Positions 5,242 to 59,067 of a DNA stretch of 64,000 nt are shown one piece after another; positions within the stretch are counted from its first letter, which is position 1; each line of letters starts with the position of its first letter. Location: NCBI RefSeq assembly GCF_004916905.1, contig NZ_SDLV01000003.1:248001-312000 (forward strand), in the 5' to 3' direction. The DNA is from Chryseobacterium candidae (GTDB lineage Bacteria; Bacteroidota; Bacteroidia; Flavobacteriales; Weeksellaceae). The notes beneath the pieces were generated by a model, which was not told where the DNA came from, made no database searches, and saw only the letters and a program-made list of their open reading frames with translations. Position numbers and translations under genes: made by a program.

Positions 5242-5513
5242 CATAACGAAGTCGAAAAAATTTCAGTCACCAATCTATAAGCCTATAGAAATAAACACAT
5301 TAGAAGATAGAATTATTCACACACAAAAGTAGAATTATTTCTACATAACTCTACTTTTCATGTATTAAAAAAAGGTACTCACACCTCAACCCCTTGCTGT
5401 ATGGGGTTTTACAAGATTTTTTTTATCATTACAAAGTGATTACAAGCCCTCGAAAACAGGCTTAATTCTCTTTAACGGGAATACTACAAAAGAAAAATAT
5501 GATAATAATCACA

Positions 5514-5550
5514 AAAAAACGCATAAAAAATCAAGTTTTTGATGCGTTTT
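5514..5550 (-). terminator. mfd terminator
   Basis: A stem ACGCAT-AAAAA paired with TTTTT-ATGCGT has one bulge. Read on the minus strand it is followed by a run of seven T. It lies 43 bp after the mfd stop. Confidence 0.8.
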
Positions 5551-5592
5551 AGTAATTTTTATAATGCTACTTCCAATAAATGAAACAAAAAT

Positions 5593-8500
5593 TTAATCAT
5601 GATTAATGATTGCTTTCAACAATAGATTAACTTCATCTACATTTTTAACTCTTTCTTTCCTCATCATCAACTGATTACCTTCTTTTCCTGATTTTTCTTT
5701 AAGCTGGGCTTCGGCCGGATTCCGGGTCAGATAACTAATAATATGCCGGAATCTATCTGTCTGATAAAACTTATCCTGAGGATTTCCCGGGAAGTACCCT
5801 AAAAATACGCCGTTTTTCATGACTATCTTTTCAAAACCGATGTCAGCAGCAAGCCACTTCAATGAAACACTCTTCAAGAGATTGACAGCTTCTTTCGGCA
5901 GTGCCCCAAAACGGTCAATCAGTTCCAGTTCAAACTGATGAAGGCCTGCTTCATTAGTAATTTCAGCAATTTTCTGATAGAGCAGCAACCTTTCTTCTGT
6001 ATTGGAAATATAGGAGTCCGGCAGCATCAATTCCAAATCAGTATCAATATTGACATCCTTCACAGATTTAAAAAGCTTCTGCCTGTCTTCTTCATTTTCA
6101 AAAAGGTTTTCAAAATCTGCATCATCTTTTAGTTCTTCCAGTGCTTCCTGCATTAGTTTCTGATAGGTTTCAAACCCCATCTCATTGATGAACCCACTCT
6201 GCTCAGCACCCAGAAGATCTCCTGCACCTCGGATTTCCAGGTCTTTCATCGCAATCTGGAAACCGCTTCCCAGATCTGAAAACTGTTCAATAGCTTCCAG
6301 ACGTTTTCTGGCATCCGAAGTCATCATATCATAAGGTGGAGTAATCAGATAACAGAATGCTTTCCTGTTACTACGTCCTACCCTTCCTCTCATCTGATGC
6401 AGATCCGCCATACCAAACCTTTGTGCATCATTGATAAAAATAGTATTGGCATTCGGAACATCTACTCCACTTTCTACAATGGTAGTGGACACAAGAACAT
6501 CATATTTCCCTTCCATAAAATCCAGAACATTCTTTTCAAGCTGCTTCCCTTCCATTTGCCCATGCCCTGTAATCACTCTCGCATCAGGAACCAGCCGCTG
6601 GATAAGTCCTGCAATATCTTTCAGGTTTTCAATTCTGTTATTGATAAAGTATACCTGACCATCTCTCTGAAGCTCATAAGAAACGGCATCGCGAAGGGTT
6701 TCTTCATTGAATCCTATTAATTGCGTATCTACAGGCTGTCTGTTTGGCGGCGGTGTTTTGATAACGGATAAATCCCTTGCAGCCATTAATGAGAACTGTA
6801 AAGTCCTCGGAATAGGAGTCGCTGTAAGGGTAAGTGTATCCACATTATTTTTCAAAGTTTTCAGTTTATCTTTTACTGAAACCCCGAATTTATGTTCTTC
6901 ATCAATAATCAGCAATCCAAGATCTTTAAATTTTACTGAACTGCTTACCAACTGATGTGTTCCTATAATGATATCTACTTTTCCGTTCTTTAAAGCCTCT
7001 AAAGTCTCCGATTTCTGCTTAGCTGTCCTGAATCGGTTTACATACGCAACATTCACCGGAAAATCTTTAAGTCTTTCTTTAAAACTTCTGTAATGCTGAA
7101 AGGCAAGAATAGTGGTTGGAACCAATACTGCAACCTGCTTACCATCTGTAGCGGCTTTAAATGCAGCTCTGATCGCAACTTCCGTTTTACCGAAACCTAC
7201 GTCACCACAGACAAGCCTGTCCATCACCGTATCAGCTTCCATATCTTTCTTTACATCTACGGTAGCCTTTTCCTGATCCGGCGTATCTTCATAAATAAAG
7301 CTGGCTTCCAGCTCGTTCTGCAGGTAGGAATCCGGAGTAAAAGCAAAGCCTTTAGCCGTTTTCCTCTGGGCATACAGTTGAATCAGGTCAAAAGCAATCT
7401 GCTTAACCTTCGCTTTTGTCTTCTGTTTTAAAGATTTCCATGTTGGAGACCCAAGTTTACTCAGAACAATTTCTCTTCCATCCGGTCCATTGTATTTCGA
7501 TATTTTATGCAGAGAGTGAATACTTACATATAATAAATCTCCATTTTTATAGGTAAGTTTGAAACATTCCTGGATCTTTCCGTCATTATTCACTTTCACC
7601 AATCCCATAAACTTCCCGATTCCATGATCAATATGGGCAATATAGTCTCCTATTTTCAGAGACATCAGGTCTTTCAGGGTGAGTTGTTCAGATTTTGCAA
7701 AGGTATTTTTAGCTTTATATCTCTGGTAACGGTCAAATATCTGATGATCCGTGTAAACCAGTAACTTGTGTCCGTTATCTACAAATCCTTCATGAAGTTC
7801 AGACTTAAAACTTTTAAATGGAAGCTCATGTTGAAGCTCTTCAAAGATGGATTCCAGCCTTTCTTTCTGTTTTTCTGTTGAAAAGGAAATCCAGGTATCA
7901 AATCCGCTGTTCTGTTTTTCTTCGATATCTTCAATCAACAATTCGAAGTTTTTATGAAAAGAAGGCTGTGGAAGCTGCTCCATTTTTACTTCAGCTACTT
8001 CTTTCAGTCCTTCAATGATCATTCCTCCAAAATCAATTGTTTTGAATTTTTTATAGTCAAACAGAAACTCCTGATCAGAAATAAAAAGCTCCTGCGGAGT
8101 CCTGTGGGCAATGTCTTTACTTAATGTATCATATTTTTCCAAAGATCTTTCATAGAACGTCCGGATCTTCTGCATTCCTACCATTCCGTTTTTAGAAACC
8201 ACAAAACTTTCCGTAGGCAATAGCTGCAACAGAGAAACCCTGGTTCCCGTTACTGAAAAGTTCATATTGGAAACCAACTGGAAATCCTTTACTTTATCTA
8301 CCGAAAGCTGTGTTTCGATATCAAAGGTTTTGATACTTTCCACTTCATTACCGAAGAACGTAATTCTGTACGGTTTTTCATGTGAATAGGAAAACACATC
8401 CACAATTCCTCCTCTCACAGAAAATTCTCCCGGTTCAGAAACAAAATCAGCCTGCTGGAAATGATAATGATTAAGCAGTTCATCCACAAAATCAAAATCC

Positions 8501-53976: not shown

Positions 53977-55788
53977 TCATTGTGTGTTTATTCCATTGAA
54001 TTCTGCCTTTTTAATGGCCCATGCAAGAGCATTGGCATAGAATATTGAATTGTATACGTTCATCTCATAAGCAGCAGCTCCGTTTCCATAGTTGGGTTTA
54101 GGAATAGGCTTATAGTTCGTATCTGCATAGAATGGGCATATTGTGTCTGAAGTATTCGGAGCAGCCACCGTTCCACACTGAGAATTGAATCCACCATCTC
54201 CTACCCAGATGAAATTTAAACTGTTATGCTTAAATGCAGTTACACGGCCTACTGTTCCTGATGGTGAAGCTGTAGAGATATTTGTATCTCCTGAATATAC
54301 TGTAATTTCACTTGATGGCAGCCCTGTAGCATAGGTTGTAGCAGAAGCATCTTCTCCCCATTGCAATCCTCTGATATCACCAAAAGGACCGTTCAGGATT
54401 TCATCATTAGTCAGGGGCAACTTATAGATTGATCCTGCGCTGTTTACACTTCCTGTATTTACAGATCCATCAAAAACATTTCTTAACAGGTTCTGCATTC
54501 CGCTGTTACTTTCAGAATAAGCAACAATTACACCACCCTTTGTCAGGTAATTTCTTAATACCTGTGCTTCTGCAGCATTCATTCCCCATGCATATCCTAT
54601 TACAATAATATCTACAGGGTTAGCTCCCGTTGTCCATGTTGTAAGCTGAGCAGCGCTTGGGCTGTCTGTACCGTCTATGATTTGATCCCATCCTTCATAT
54701 TTTACAATACTATTAGCCAATGTGCCAAAATTGGCTGCGGCTTTGGTTACCATCCCTGATGGAGAAGTTCCGGATACGTTATATCCACAACCGTTGGGTG
54801 CTGTTCCAATAGTTAGAAGTTTTTTCTTGGGAATCACTACAATTACATTTACAGAGCATGTGGTAGATACTCCTCCCTGGCTGTCGGAAGTAATGGTCAT
54901 TGTTTTAACCGTCGTAGAAGAAGGTGAACCTGTTCCTTGTAAAGTAATATTCTGATTTCCTGTAGAGGTAAATGTTCCTGATCCGCTGAAAGAAATTCCA
55001 TCAACGGTATTGGTTGTAACCGTGTAACTTCCCAATGCCGAAACATTTACAGGCAATGTAATTGTATTGGACGCTGTAAGTGCTGTTCCCACTTTATACA
55101 CGCCATTTACGGTTGCACTTCCACAGCTCATGGTATAAGACCCGGCCGGGCTTAGTACTGCAATAGAAATTGCTGGTGTACAATTAACTGCTGCCCCATT
55201 GGCTTCAAGTGTTATATTATCCGTCTGCACATTCTGAGGAGTTCCCTGCCCCGGAATCTGTATTGTTTGTACGCCTGTATTAAGGAAAACACCTGTTCCA
55301 TAAAAGTTATATCCATTCGGTGTAGTTCCTGTAATTGTATAATTTCCTAATTTAGTTACATTTACAGCAATACTCAGGTAATTTGAACTGGTAAGTTCTT
55401 TTCCTTTAACATAGCTTCCCATTGCTTTGGAAGAAGAGCAATCTACTGTAAAAACAGCTTTCCCCATCTGTCCGCAGACACTTTTCCACTCATTATCAGC
55501 AAGACTCCAGTAATTAATACAGTCTTCTGTTGTATTATAAATTGTCAAGCCATCATCTTGAGCATTGTTGATTACAATAGCATTTCTTTGTGCTTCAGTA
55601 AGTCTAGGGATAAGAACCCCTTTGTTGTTATTACTAGAAACAACATCCAATACAGAATTGGCATTAGGTGTTGTAGTATTAATCCCTACTGCACCATTGG
55701 TGCTTTGAGAATAATATTCTCCAAAAGTAAAGAGAAGTGCAATTAAAATGCACTTGATCGAGGGCGATTTAAATTTTGTACTCATCAT
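53977..55788 (-). CDS. Large secreted protein with VGINT motif, two tandem beta repeats and an amidotransferase-like C-terminal domain
   Basis: The protein is 603 aa with a signal peptide (about 1-28). GAVGINTTTPNANSVLDVV begins the mature part, followed by GVLIPRLTEAQRNAI and NTTEDCINYWSLADNEWKSVCG, as in many Chryseobacterium surface proteins. Two tandem beta repeats of about 95 aa follow (each: Cys, then SYVKG or GVYKVGTALTASN, then LGSYTVTT...GISFSGSGTF). The C-terminal part from about 330 looks like a class I glutamine-amidotransferase-like fold (VDIIVIGYAWGMNAAEAQVLRNYL, GGVIVAYSES) with no clear catalytic Cys triad. A palindrome lies 92 bp upstream. Confidence 0.82.
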   Translation of the reverse strand: MMSTKFKSPSIKCILIALLFTFGEYYSQSTNGAVGINTTTPNANSVLDVVSSNNNKGVLIPRLTEAQRNAIVINNAQDDGLTIYNTTEDCINYWSLADNEWKSVCGQMGKAVFTVDCSSSKAMGSYVKGKELTSSNYLSIAVNVTKLGNYTITGTTPNGYNFYGTGVFLNTGVQTIQIPGQGTPQNVQTDNITLEANGAAVNCTPAISIAVLSPAGSYTMSCGSATVNGVYKVGTALTASNTITLPVNVSALGSYTVTTNTVDGISFSGSGTFTSTGNQNITLQGTGSPSSTTVKTMTITSDSQGGVSTTCSVNVIVVIPKKKLLTIGTAPNGCGYNVSGTSPSGMVTKAAANFGTLANSIVKYEGWDQIIDGTDSPSAAQLTTWTTGANPVDIIVIGYAWGMNAAEAQVLRNYLTKGGVIVAYSESNSGMQNLLRNVFDGSVNTGSVNSAGSIYKLPLTNDEILNGPFGDIRGLQWGEDASATTYATGLPSSEITVYSGDTNISTASPSGTVGRVTAFKHNSLNFIWVGDGGFNSQCGTVAAPNTSDTICPFYADTNYKPIPKPNYGNGAAAYEMNVYNSIFYANALAWAIKKAEFNGINTQ

Positions 55789-55845
55789 ATTAAGTTATAA
55801 TTGTTTAATGGTTAATTATTTTAACTAAAATTATAAAACTTTTCG

Positions 55846-55853
55846 CAAAATAA
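55846..55853 (-). promoter_or_regulatory. -7 box (TTATTTTG, one mismatch) for the 603-aa gene
   Basis: It differs from TAnnTTTG at one base. Its centre is exactly 47 bp from the centre of the palindrome at 55880-55913, the same spacing as at the regulator gene. Confidence 0.5.
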
Positions 55854-55879
55854 CAACAACATTTGCTTAATATCATGAT

Positions 55880-55913
55880 TTTAGCTACGCAATACTACTC
55901 ATGCGTAGCTAAA
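55880..55913. promoter_or_regulatory. Palindromic operator-like site A
   Basis: Perfect 12-bp arms (TTTAGCTACGCA and TGCGTAGCTAAA) flank the 10-nt core ATACTACTCA. The core and inner arm TACGCA/TGCGTA recur at 58295-58316. It sits upstream of the 603-aa secreted-protein gene. Confidence 0.65.
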
Positions 55914-56150
55914 CTCATAAACAACCAACGAATTATAACACATATTAAATAATAATCAAATTTAAGTGATTTTATAAAAAAGAAAAATGATTATGAACAT
56001 TAAAAAAACAATCAAAACATTAAGAGCATTAAAACATGCACCGCTTTAAGCATAAAAACAGAACAATGTCTTATGTTTTAGGTTTTTCATAAAGACCTTA
56101 AATAGCAAATAGTCTTTGATAACGTAAAAGTTCATGGCAAAAACACCTTT

Positions 56151-56471
56151 TCATTCATTAAAAATAGTTTTCCATTTGGAAATAGTATTTCTACTTATCT
56201 TAAACAGTCTGCTCAGCTGGAGATTATTAAGTCCGTTCTGTTTCTGATATTTCAGAATTTTTAATATAGATTTTTCGTCATATGAACGAAGTCTTTGATT
56301 ATTAAATCCAACCGCATATTCAGGCTCTCCAAAAACCAGCTGATTAAACTTGAGAACATCAAAAGCCGAATTCAATGTTTTAAGCTTAAGCCTGATTGTA
56401 GCGTCTATTAACTTTTCCGGGAACTTTTCCTCGAGAATATCAGTATAAATCTGTTTGTAATCCGGAGTCAT
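56151..56471 (-). CDS. Small helix-turn-helix protein
   Basis: The protein is 106 aa and cytoplasmic. The C-terminal HTH is LNNLQLSRLFKISRNTISKWKTIFNE (about 80-106), of the type used by IS3-OrfA-like and MerR/homeodomain-like proteins. The N-terminal half, KQIYTDILEEKFPEKLIDATIRLKLKTL, is helical. It starts 1 bp after the stop of the upstream HTH gene, so the two are one operon. There is no transposase catalytic domain and there are no terminal repeats, so I take it for a regulator, not an insertion sequence remnant. Confidence 0.72.
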   Translation of the reverse strand: MTPDYKQIYTDILEEKFPEKLIDATIRLKLKTLNSAFDVLKFNQLVFGEPEYAVGFNNQRLRSYDEKSILKILKYQKQNGLNNLQLSRLFKISRNTISKWKTIFNE

Positions 56472-56472
56472 A

Positions 56473-56886
56473 TTATATTTTTTTCATCCATTTGTATAAA
56501 GTAGTTTTAGGTATTTTATACCTTTCCACAGCATCGCTGACAGTCATTGTTCCGGTTTTTATTTTTTCCAGAATAAAATCCTTCACCTCTTGCGTATAAA
56601 TGCTTTTTCTGAAAATCAGGGTATTTTCCTTTTTTCTGAATGCATTATCAATTCTGGACTGCGGAGAATACAAAATAAGATGCCCGGTATAAAATCTAAA
56701 GAAATCAAACTTTAAAAGCTTGCACCATTTCAGAAGGATATCGGTATCCATACTTTTCGTATGGTACATTTTTTCTATATCTTCTTCCGTTTGCTCGAAA
56801 AATCTGCAGATTCTTTCTATAGAAATCTGATGCTCTTCTACTTTGGACCTGATCAGATCCCCAATATTAATGTCCTTAATATTCAT
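56473..56886 (-). CDS. Helix-turn-helix regulator with N-terminal XRE-like and C-terminal transposase-type HTH
   Basis: The protein is 137 aa from the ATG at 56886. A TTG at 56925 overlaps the possible promoter box and is not used. The N-terminal half, IGDLIRSKVEEHQISIERICRFFEQTEEDIEKMY, looks like a POU/XRE-type helical unit. The C-terminal half, KIKTGTMTVSDAVERYKIPKTTLYKWMKKI, is a second HTH. In memory, similar double-HTH proteins are common in Chryseobacterium and are sometimes called transposase. I infer DNA binding for regulation. It is in an operon with the 106-aa gene. Confidence 0.72.
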   Translation of the reverse strand: MNIKDINIGDLIRSKVEEHQISIERICRFFEQTEEDIEKMYHTKSMDTDILLKWCKLLKFDFFRFYTGHLILYSPQSRIDNAFRKKENTLIFRKSIYTQEVKDFILEKIKTGTMTVSDAVERYKIPKTTLYKWMKKI

Positions 56887-56922
56887 CACAATATTTTTAA
56901 GTAAAAATATTGACAAGAGAAG

Positions 56923-56930
56923 CAAAGATC
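56923..56930 (-). promoter_or_regulatory. Possible -7 box (GATCTTTG) for the two-gene HTH operon
   Basis: It has one mismatch to TAnnTTTG, 36 nt before the ATG at 56886. No clear palindrome copy lies at the expected 47-bp spacing. Confidence 0.35.
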
Positions 56931-56983
56931 ACCAAGAAAAACTACTCAAAACTACGTATAAGTAATAAAAAACAGGATTCTGT

Positions 56984-57976
56984 TTAAATTTTTATAAGAA
57001 AGCTGTTGATATTGATCTCCGAGGAAATATTCAGTTTTTTCCGGATTCTGTATTTTTTACTTTCTACGGCGCGAATACTGTTATTGGTACACTGTGCTAT
57101 TTTCTTAGTATCAAAATCCAGCTTCATCAAAGCACAAAAATACAACTCAGAATGAATGAGATTAGGATTGATCGTTAAAAGATCTGGAATAAAATGAGGA
57201 AAAAACACCTGAAACTTTTCAAAAAACATAGGCGAATTGTTTTCTGCCAACATTAAAATTTCCCTGATATTTTCTTCCGAAAGATGATTGATAAGCATTT
57301 GATGCTTCATCAGCTCTGCATTCGTTTTTACAAGATCTTTGATGGTAGAATCTTTCTCATTTTTATCTGTAATTAAGCCATGGATCAACTGATCTTTCTG
57401 GGTTATAAAAACGATATCCACCAGGAAAGAGGCAACAGAAAACAAAATATTCAGCAATTTTATGGTCTTAAAATCCTCTTTTTCTATAAATCTGCTTTTA
57501 GGAAGAAAATCAAAATCAAAGTAAAGGCAAGCAATAAAGTTAATGCTGATAATAAAAGTAATAAAAAAAATTGCAAAAGCATCTTTTTTATAGTTCAGAA
57601 AGAATGGAACGGCAAACAAAAGACAAAAATAGAAATACTCTACTCCTGCATTTTTATAGGTATAGATATTAAAAAAGTTCACTATAAAAGTAAGTAAAAC
57701 GAATATTCCGATTATGGAGGTTTTCAAAATCTTTTTAAAACGTTTCGTTTTTCCTTTTATAGCAATCAGAAACAGCCAGAAAAAGGTAATGACAGTAAGG
57801 AATATGGAGATCAGCATATCTCCGAAAAAAGTAATAATAAAAATAGAATAAAACAGGAATATGAAAAACAATAAAAGCAAATACCGGTTAATAAGATGAA
57901 GATAATTACTTTCAAAATCATCATCCATGTTCTCAGCTTCGTCGTTGATCACCTTAAATAAAAATTTATAAATCAT
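56984..57976 (-). CDS. Membrane-anchored LuxR-like HTH regulator
   Basis: The protein is 330 aa. About six transmembrane helices (residues about 30-205) come first, then a charged linker (KNEKDSTIKDLVKTNAELMK, coiled-coil-like). The C-terminal HTH is YFCALMKLDFDTKKIAQCTN then SIRAVESKKYRIRKKLNI (about 275-318), typical of the LuxR-like domains of Bacteroidota signalling proteins (KEIA, RSVE, RxRLRKKL). It is probably a one-component membrane sensor acting on nearby genes. It carries its own upstream palindrome copy at 58295-58316. Confidence 0.82.
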   Translation of the reverse strand: MIYKFLFKVINDEAENMDDDFESNYLHLINRYLLLLFFIFLFYSIFIITFFGDMLISIFLTVITFFWLFLIAIKGKTKRFKKILKTSIIGIFVLLTFIVNFFNIYTYKNAGVEYFYFCLLFAVPFFLNYKKDAFAIFFITFIISINFIACLYFDFDFLPKSRFIEKEDFKTIKLLNILFSVASFLVDIVFITQKDQLIHGLITDKNEKDSTIKDLVKTNAELMKHQMLINHLSEENIREILMLAENNSPMFFEKFQVFFPHFIPDLLTINPNLIHSELYFCALMKLDFDTKKIAQCTNNSIRAVESKKYRIRKKLNISSEININSFLIKI

Positions 57977-58135
57977 CTTGATGTTTTTTATGTTTTCACA
58001 AGCTTAAGTTGGCATTTGTACTCCTGAAGGCATAAATTTCCCAATATTAACAGCTTTTTATGCAAAAAAAACTACAAATGAAATTTACTAGTCTTTTTCA
58101 GCATTAAAAGAATATGATTAAGGTGTTTTTTCTAG

Positions 58136-58207
58136 CTACAATTTACTAAAAATTGATATTAAAATTATCAAATGAAATATCATTTTTGAAAACAAATTAA
58201 TAAGCAT
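58136..58207 (-). CDS. Possible small hydrophobic leader peptide (23 aa)
   Basis: ATG at 58207 to TAG at 58136. The product is MLINLFSKMIFHLIILISIF plus three residues, which looks like a single transmembrane peptide. GAGG lies 4-5 nt before the ATG. The region is so AT-rich that a chance reading frame of this kind is likely. Treat it as a candidate only. Confidence 0.2.
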   Translation of the reverse strand: MLINLFSKMIFHLIILISIFSKL

Positions 58208-58254
58208 TTACCTCATATCACTTAAAAAGCATGAGCTTGTGTTTTTTGAGCATG

Positions 58255-58262
58255 CAAAATTA
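58255..58262 (-). promoter_or_regulatory. -7 box (TAATTTTG) for the membrane regulator
   Basis: It is an exact TAnnTTTG match on the minus strand whose centre is 47 bp from the centre of the palindrome at 58295-58316. Confidence 0.55.
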
Positions 58263-58294
58263 TTAATCACAATGGAAAAGCACCCATCTTCCAA

Positions 58295-58316
58295 TACGCA
58301 ATATTACTCATGCGTA
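58295..58316. promoter_or_regulatory. Palindromic operator-like site B
   Basis: 6-bp arms TACGCA/TGCGTA flank the core ATATTACTCA, which differs from site A at a single base. It sits upstream of the membrane LuxR-like gene at the same promoter spacing as site A. Confidence 0.65.
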
Positions 58317-58361
58317 ATTTAAACTTTATACACTTAAATGTGGTTTCGTATTACTAAATAA

Positions 58362-58388
58362 AAAAGAGAGCTGTATAAGCTCTCTTTT
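58362..58388 (-). terminator. psd operon terminator
   Basis: A perfect 11-bp stem (AAAAGAGAGCT, AGCTCTCTTTT; 58362-58388) with a 5-nt loop has a T-rich tail on the minus strand. Confidence 0.9.
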
Positions 58389-58410
58389 CATTCTATATGC
58401 GATAAGAATA

Positions 58411-59067
58411 TTAATTTTCTTTCAGTTTGGCGATAACATCCTCACCACCTTTTGTAATATCTCCGATTTTACAGATAATCTCAGTATCCAAAGGCAGGAA
58501 TACATCCATTCTGGAACCGAATTTGATAAATCCGAATTCATGTCCGGCTTTTGCCTTATCTCCTTCATTACAGTAGAAAACGATTCGTCTTGCAACATAA
58601 CCTGCAATCTGTCTGAAGACTACTTTATGATCAGTCATCGTCTGAATAGCTACCGTAGTTCTTTCGTTCTCCGTAGAAGACTTTTCATGCCATGCTACAA
58701 GATACTTTCCAGGGTGGTATTTTTTGTAAATAACATCTCCCGAAACCGGATATCTACAAATGTGAACATTGAGAGGAGACATAAAAATAGAAACCTGGAT
58801 AGCTTTTCCTTTGATAAACTCATCCTCTTCCACTTCTTTGATCATTACCACTTTTCCGTCCACCGGAGCAATTACGTTTTCTTTGTGATCAAGAATATTA
58901 CGATCAGGAACTCTGAAGAACCAGAAAACTAAACCGTAAATAACCAATAAAGGCATAATGATCACCAGTGACCATATTTTAAGGAAATAGATTGCGAGAG
59001 CACCCAGTATAATAAAAAGCAGGGTTGCAACGGTAATCGTTCCTTTTGATTCTCTATGTAATTTCAT
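58411..59067 (-). CDS. psd: Phosphatidylserine decarboxylase proenzyme, short type
   Basis: This enzyme makes phosphatidylethanolamine from phosphatidylserine. The product is 218 aa, the short prokaryotic type with an N-terminal membrane region (about 12-52). The pyruvoyl self-cleavage site is KFGSRMDVF (Gly184-Ser185). APVDGKVV, QVSIFMSPLNVHICRYPVSG and YHPGKYLVAWHEKSSTENER are the conserved core. It starts 4 bp after the cdsA stop, so the two phospholipid genes are cotranscribed. Confidence 0.94.
   Translation of the reverse strand: MKLHRESKGTITVATLLFIILGALAIYFLKIWSLVIIMPLLVIYGLVFWFFRVPDRNILDHKENVIAPVDGKVVMIKEVEEDEFIKGKAIQVSIFMSPLNVHICRYPVSGDVIYKKYHPGKYLVAWHEKSSTENERTTVAIQTMTDHKVVFRQIAGYVARRIVFYCNEGDKAKAGHEFGFIKFGSRMDVFLPLDTEIICKIGDITKGGEDVIAKLKEN

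Follow-up and report, generated by a model that had tools for sequence, protein, structure and literature searches.

Probable promoter-linked operators at a surface-protein locus of Chryseobacterium, with a membrane LuxR-type protein as candidate regulator

Two matching inverted repeats in the genome of Chryseobacterium candidae, here called sites A and B, each lie upstream of a minus-strand gene, A before the gene of a 603-aa secreted protein and B before that of a membrane protein with a LuxR-like DNA-binding domain (hereafter LuxR). A preliminary description of the window, which is the whole stretch of 64,000 nucleotides that was analysed, proposed that they form a regulon of two promoters controlled by the membrane protein. 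This raises the question of whether these sites are operators, how far the regulon extends and which protein binds them. To our knowledge, few operators are known for regulators of Bacteroidota. The comparative data presented here supply an operator at nucleotide level, a fixed promoter geometry and a named candidate regulator, in a candidate system tied to a surface protein with a swapped C-terminal domain. The features of the locus are listed in Table 1.

Table 1. Features of the locus, with positions in the window
Feature	Position	Strand	Description
603-aa secreted protein	53977..55788	-	signal peptide; VGINTTTPN head; Ig-like domains ~110-300; alpha/beta C-terminal domain
-7 box, promoter A	55846..55853	-	TTATTTTG; 5/6 consensus bases of TAnnTTTG; inferred TSS near 55841
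Operator A	55886..55917	-	TGAGTTTAGC-TACGCATGAGTA-GTAT-TGCGTA; 5' of the secreted protein gene; model E 9.4e-13
H106	56151..56471	-	106-aa HTH protein, partner of H150
H150	56473..56886	-	137-aa HTH protein, ATG fits promoter C; 150 aa from TTG in the ORF list; multi-copy family
-7 box, promoter C	56902..56909	-	TATTTTTA; inferred TSS near 56897, 11 nt 5' of the ATG of the HTH gene
Operator C	56943..56974	-	22-mer TACTTATACGTAGTTTTGAGTA at 56943-56964; 5' of the HTH gene pair; model E 8.3e-8
Membrane LuxR/NarL-type regulator	56984..57976	-	330 aa; proposed binder
-7 box, promoter B	58255..58262	-	TAATTTTG; 6/6 consensus bases; inferred TSS near 58250
Operator B	58295..58326	-	AAGTTTAAAT-TACGCATGAGTA-ATAT-TGCGTA; 5' of the LuxR-like gene; model E 1.6e-13
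Terminator-like hairpin	58361..58389	.	between psd (58411-59067) and operator B; separates B from the upstream gene

Structure of the sites and geometry of their promoters

Site A (55880-55913) reads TTTAGCTACGCA-ATACTACTCA-TGCGTAGCTAAA and site B (58295-58316) reads TACGCA-ATATTACTCA-TGCGTA. Verification on the sequence confirmed the coordinates and letters given in the preliminary description, including the 10-nt cores, which differ at one base, and the distance of 47 from the centre of the palindrome to the centre of the box, equal in A and B. The sites had been read as TACGCA and TGCGTA arms around a 10-nt core; the arms are present, but this core contains a further half-site. A simple TACGCA..TGCGTA palindrome was ruled out, since the arms are no better conserved than the bases between them and a 10-nt element upstream. 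The alignment of the relatives' sites showed, in the direction of the gene, a conserved unit TGAGTTTTAC-TACKCRYGMGTA-GTAT-TGCGTA; about 32-33 variable bases separate it from TAnnTTTG. The operator is an array of half-sites. The TAC..GTA half-site arrays of the locus may resemble NarL-type sites. In one genome (G145) the whole 32 bp are near-palindromic, at 26 of 32 positions, which suggests that two dimers sit on the same face of the DNA.

In the genome of 4.69 Mb, TACGCAATANTACTCATGCGTA as a joint pattern has exactly two matches when up to three mismatches are allowed; both have the same orientation, and the reverse one does not occur. A model of 77 positions, comprising site, spacer and -7 box, recovered B, A and a third site, C, and gave nothing further below an E-value of 0.44; a loose scan for more members with three mismatches gave 15 matches in the genome versus 14 in a control. 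Operator C is located between the LuxR gene and the genes of two small HTH proteins, H150 and H106, with its box at offset 33. The regulon of two promoters thus stands as regards A and B but not as regards their total number, since the site before the 137-aa HTH gene had been missed. Scattered copies, named beforehand as the mark of a dispersed repeat, were absent: the genome contains three, each before a promoter. The regulon would then be purely local, that is, the locus itself.

In Bacteroidota, the -7 box TAnnTTTG has its consensus position at -12 to -5 (PMC9723704), and the locus carries this sigma-A promoter element. Of the 66 A sites, 65 have a perfect TAnnTTTG 32-34 nt further on, as do 59 of the 63 B sites, with about 0.09 expected for each, and 32 of the 34 C sites have a box with five of the six consensus bases at offset 33. 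The fixed spacing proposed for A and B is therefore kept across 70 species. Within one genome, A and B share 80% identity in the operator versus 33% in the spacer, so that the distance between operator and box is kept while the spacer sequence drifts. The orientation of the site relative to its gene is also fixed. No conserved column was found in the spacer alignment at the expected -33 position, in agreement with the earlier remark that no clear element of this kind can be seen.

Counting from inferred start sites, with the box taken at -12 to -5, the centre of the 12-bp core falls at -60.5 in A and B and at -61.5 in C, which would correspond to the position of a class I activator. Class I activators bind at such positions, CRP at -61.5 being an example. 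The locus resembles class I activator-dependent promoters in this centre, in a site that precedes the core promoter at a fixed helical phase (offsets of 32-34 nt) and in the lack of a -33 element, and it differs in its Bacteroidota-type -7 box TAnnTTTG; the start sites in this comparison are inferred ones.

From promoter B, the LuxR transcript would have a leader of about 274 nt (57977-58250); its length is similar in other loci in which LuxR comes first, and it may carry a further control element. In the genome studied here, site A (55876-55917) has long and perfect outer arms, TTTAGC/GCTAAA, which produce a long hairpin with a very strong fold, absent in the relatives compared.

The RNA fold of A (-23.2 kcal/mol, z -5.7) could indicate that the sites act as transcription terminators or as RNA hairpins, but the folds of B and C are weak (z -1.3 and -0.8), no T-tract follows the sites, none of them is called in a terminator scan, a terminator-like hairpin belonging to psd lies ahead of B, and the outer arms of A are not conserved in relatives. 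We consider such a role hardly credible.

Distribution of the sites and changes of gene content

In a sample of 173 Chryseobacterium genomes, an orthologue of LuxR (at least 50% identity) is present in 70 and absent from 103. The pattern derived from the two sites of the window was found in 63 of the 173 genomes, mostly as pairs of sites 1.4-2.4 kb apart. The orthologue is encoded in 61 of these 63; nine LuxR genomes were missed by the pattern, two of the 103 others were positive and 101 had neither (p=2.9e-34). The model detected a strong site in 70 of 70 LuxR genomes, which do not represent 70 independent events, because the loci are related by descent, and in one of the 103 others (G053, a relic locus); since it was trained on these loci, the absences carry the information. 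No match was obtained in 148 genomes from 32 other genera of the same family. The co-occurrence with the LuxR-like protein expected by the preliminary description was thus observed, and copies in genomes that lack the regulator, which it had regarded as contrary evidence, are almost absent (two of 103 by the pattern and one of 103 by the model).

Among the 70 LuxR loci, operator A was found with up to three mismatches in 66 and operator B in 63; operator C was found with the same tolerance in 34 loci, and the model picked up weaker copies in one more clade. As read from these genomes, the arrangement is nearly identical in 70 species. One genome (G006) has LuxR and A, and a recognisable B was not found in it. 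Similar sites in G071, G096, G099 and G151 (TGCGCAATA.TACTC..) were dropped, since they adjoin unrelated genes. LuxR is the sole regulator found at every locus; it is also the gene nearest to the sites, so co-occurrence alone cannot separate it from an unlinked factor of like distribution. Stronger arguments lie in the spacers, which drift independently, in orphaned sites, which decay, and in a paralogue of LuxR described below.

The position of the locus adjoining psd is conserved, and its gene content and order vary. In loci with the alternative order B-H150-H106-LuxR-A, an operator still precedes each unit and B moves to the front, and in G057 and G080 a different VGI-type secreted protein is found behind A. 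The rule is one operator for each transcription unit, in any gene order. Where the secreted gene was lost (G073, G061, G062 and G112), operator A is weakened or absent. In G053 the entire module between psd and the gene of a 115-aa protein was lost, leaving one decaying operator/promoter with a mutated box (5270-5790 of the locus).

The presence of copies in the same orientation near both ends of a block of about 2.4 kb, which can be lost as in G053, would also be expected of recombination or attachment sites (dif-like sites or transposon ends) around a mobile cassette. However, a third copy lies inside the block and every copy is locked to a promoter; G054 and G091 lost the H150-H106 pair yet retain both flanking sites; and the deletion in G053 took the secreted gene too, which recombination between A and B would have spared. 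None of the three deletions (G054, G091 and G053) ends at a site, and the locus keeps its place beside psd. A recombinational function is extremely improbable.

The proteins H150 and H106 deserve attention as binders in place of LuxR: the genes of these two predicted HTH proteins lie between the sites and have operator C in front of them. Their genes are missing, however, at 12 LuxR loci that retain operator A, mostly exact, and homologues of H150 occur in about 166 of the 173 genomes while the sites are confined to those with LuxR, so it is LuxR, and not the H150-H106 pair, that follows the sites. In addition, C decayed where the pair was lost in G054 and G091, and A and B remained intact. 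Binding by H150 and/or H106 is very unlikely.

The membrane LuxR-type protein and its probable mode of action

The AlphaFold2 model of LuxR shows about six predicted transmembrane helices and a long linker helix and, at the C-terminus, a four-helix HTH domain of the GerE type (residues 275-329). Confidence is moderate for the full-length protein (pLDDT 73) and about 81-91 for the HTH. Foldseek matched the latter to the domains of VraR, LiaR, NarL, RcsB and ComA, mostly with probability 0.9-1.00 and TM 0.7-0.8, and with E-values above 0.3 for this small domain. Against the C-terminal 88 aa, the Pfam family GerE (PF00196) scored 14.1 bits (cut-off 23.5; E 0.037), and the full protein gave no match. 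A Pfam search found neither an autoinducer-binding nor a receiver domain, and the N-terminal half is transmembrane. A search of solved structures by sequence gave no useful match, and in the open-access literature we found no study of this locus and no operator for a membrane LuxR protein of this type.

The likeness to LuxR/NarL (GerE) regulators therefore resides in the C-terminal four-helix fold (Foldseek probability about 1.0), whereas the locus protein differs in carrying its HTH on about six transmembrane helices, in the lack of a detected receiver or autoinducer domain and in a Pfam GerE score below the cut-off; the autoinducer-binding domain that marks quorum-sensing LuxR proteins was not detected. 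With the ToxR family and CadC (PMC7888679, PMC6320335) it shares a predicted membrane sensor and a DNA-binding domain in one chain, but those proteins have an N-terminal winged HTH, one transmembrane helix and a periplasmic domain, while the locus protein has a C-terminal LuxR-type HTH and a polytopic membrane domain, which places it outside that family. BT3442_fam (NCBIfam NF053779) resembles its HTH region (E 2.6e-6 over residues 241-322), but the score is far under the cut-off (26 of 940 bits) and the N-terminal part is different. In the same genomes, LuxR-HTH proteins about 480-525 aa long have roughly 40-52% identity to the locus protein in the HTH, and their N-terminal parts are different.

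LuxR is the best candidate for the binder and very probably acts as an autoregulated local activator. We propose as a likely reading that this membrane LuxR/NarL-type protein binds A, B and C from a class I position and activates its own gene, H150-H106 and the gene of the secreted protein. With four half-site positions about one helical turn apart, the bound LuxR oligomer probably consists of two dimers; it would cover about -45 to -76, in promoters where a good -7 box is present but a -33 element cannot be recognised, and would recruit RNA polymerase from there. LuxR would thereby activate its own gene in positive autoregulation, together with the H150-H106 pair and the secreted surface protein, and the signal may be sensed through the membrane domain.

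Negative autoregulation is common, and the position of the operators is indirect evidence, so LuxR might bind and repress, or switch between repression and activation. We regard this as unlikely: every operator is placed entirely upstream of the core promoter, at a distance that is constrained, no element is conserved in the -33 region, and a constant helical phase is a typical trait of activators. In addition, LuxR/NarL proteins are mostly activators. Together with the operator sequence, the promoter geometry and the candidate regulator, the natural deletions described above and a paralogue with altered site specificity make binding, autoregulation and the specificity code directly testable.

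Paralogues and the proteins of the locus

This paralogue, about 41% identical to LuxR, occurs in G016, G095 and G096, with the variant site CACTCGTGAGTATTCATGAGTG and its relatives before its own gene. A related site is also found before the next gene, with 32 nt to the box in clear cases, and the model, which had not been trained on the sites of the paralogue, found them (E 3e-5 to 0.03). These sites support the view that the geometry is a property of the regulator family. For paralogues with 30-36% identity, pairwise comparison within single loci revealed nothing convincing as common sites.

Most paralogous membrane LuxR genes (30-48% identity) stand immediately upstream of a gene for a secreted or surface protein, an arrangement that points to a family of cassettes. 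Chryseobacterium surface-protein cassettes could each have their own membrane LuxR and operator specificity, forming several self-reinforcing switches per genome, insulated from one another, for surface proteins that have diversified, and perhaps sensing contact or the export of the surface protein itself; we put this forward as a tentative idea that is rather doubtful at present.

For the secreted protein, Foldseek gave generic Ig-like matches only. Its first 300 residues have 85-90% identity among close species, and residues from about 305 to 590 fall into discrete types, sequences of one type being mostly more than 90% alike and those of different types 40-46%. On the LuxR tree, a quick tree in which supported branches force only some of the changes, the two main C-terminal types require at least 10 of them. 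The C-terminal domain was likely replaced repeatedly between species, and the surface protein appears to diversify rapidly. Such domain swapping is expected for phage receptors or recognition proteins, which is a guess as to its role.

The H150-H106 pair belongs to a multi-copy family, with about 10 more intact or partial copies in this genome (paralogues at C38, C19, C12, C32, C31, C28, C9 and C49); other genomes of the genus have as many as about 20. The copies usually have as neighbours secreted proteins whose N-terminus reads (Q)VGINTxxP, and the C-termini of the family resemble the HTHs of transposases.
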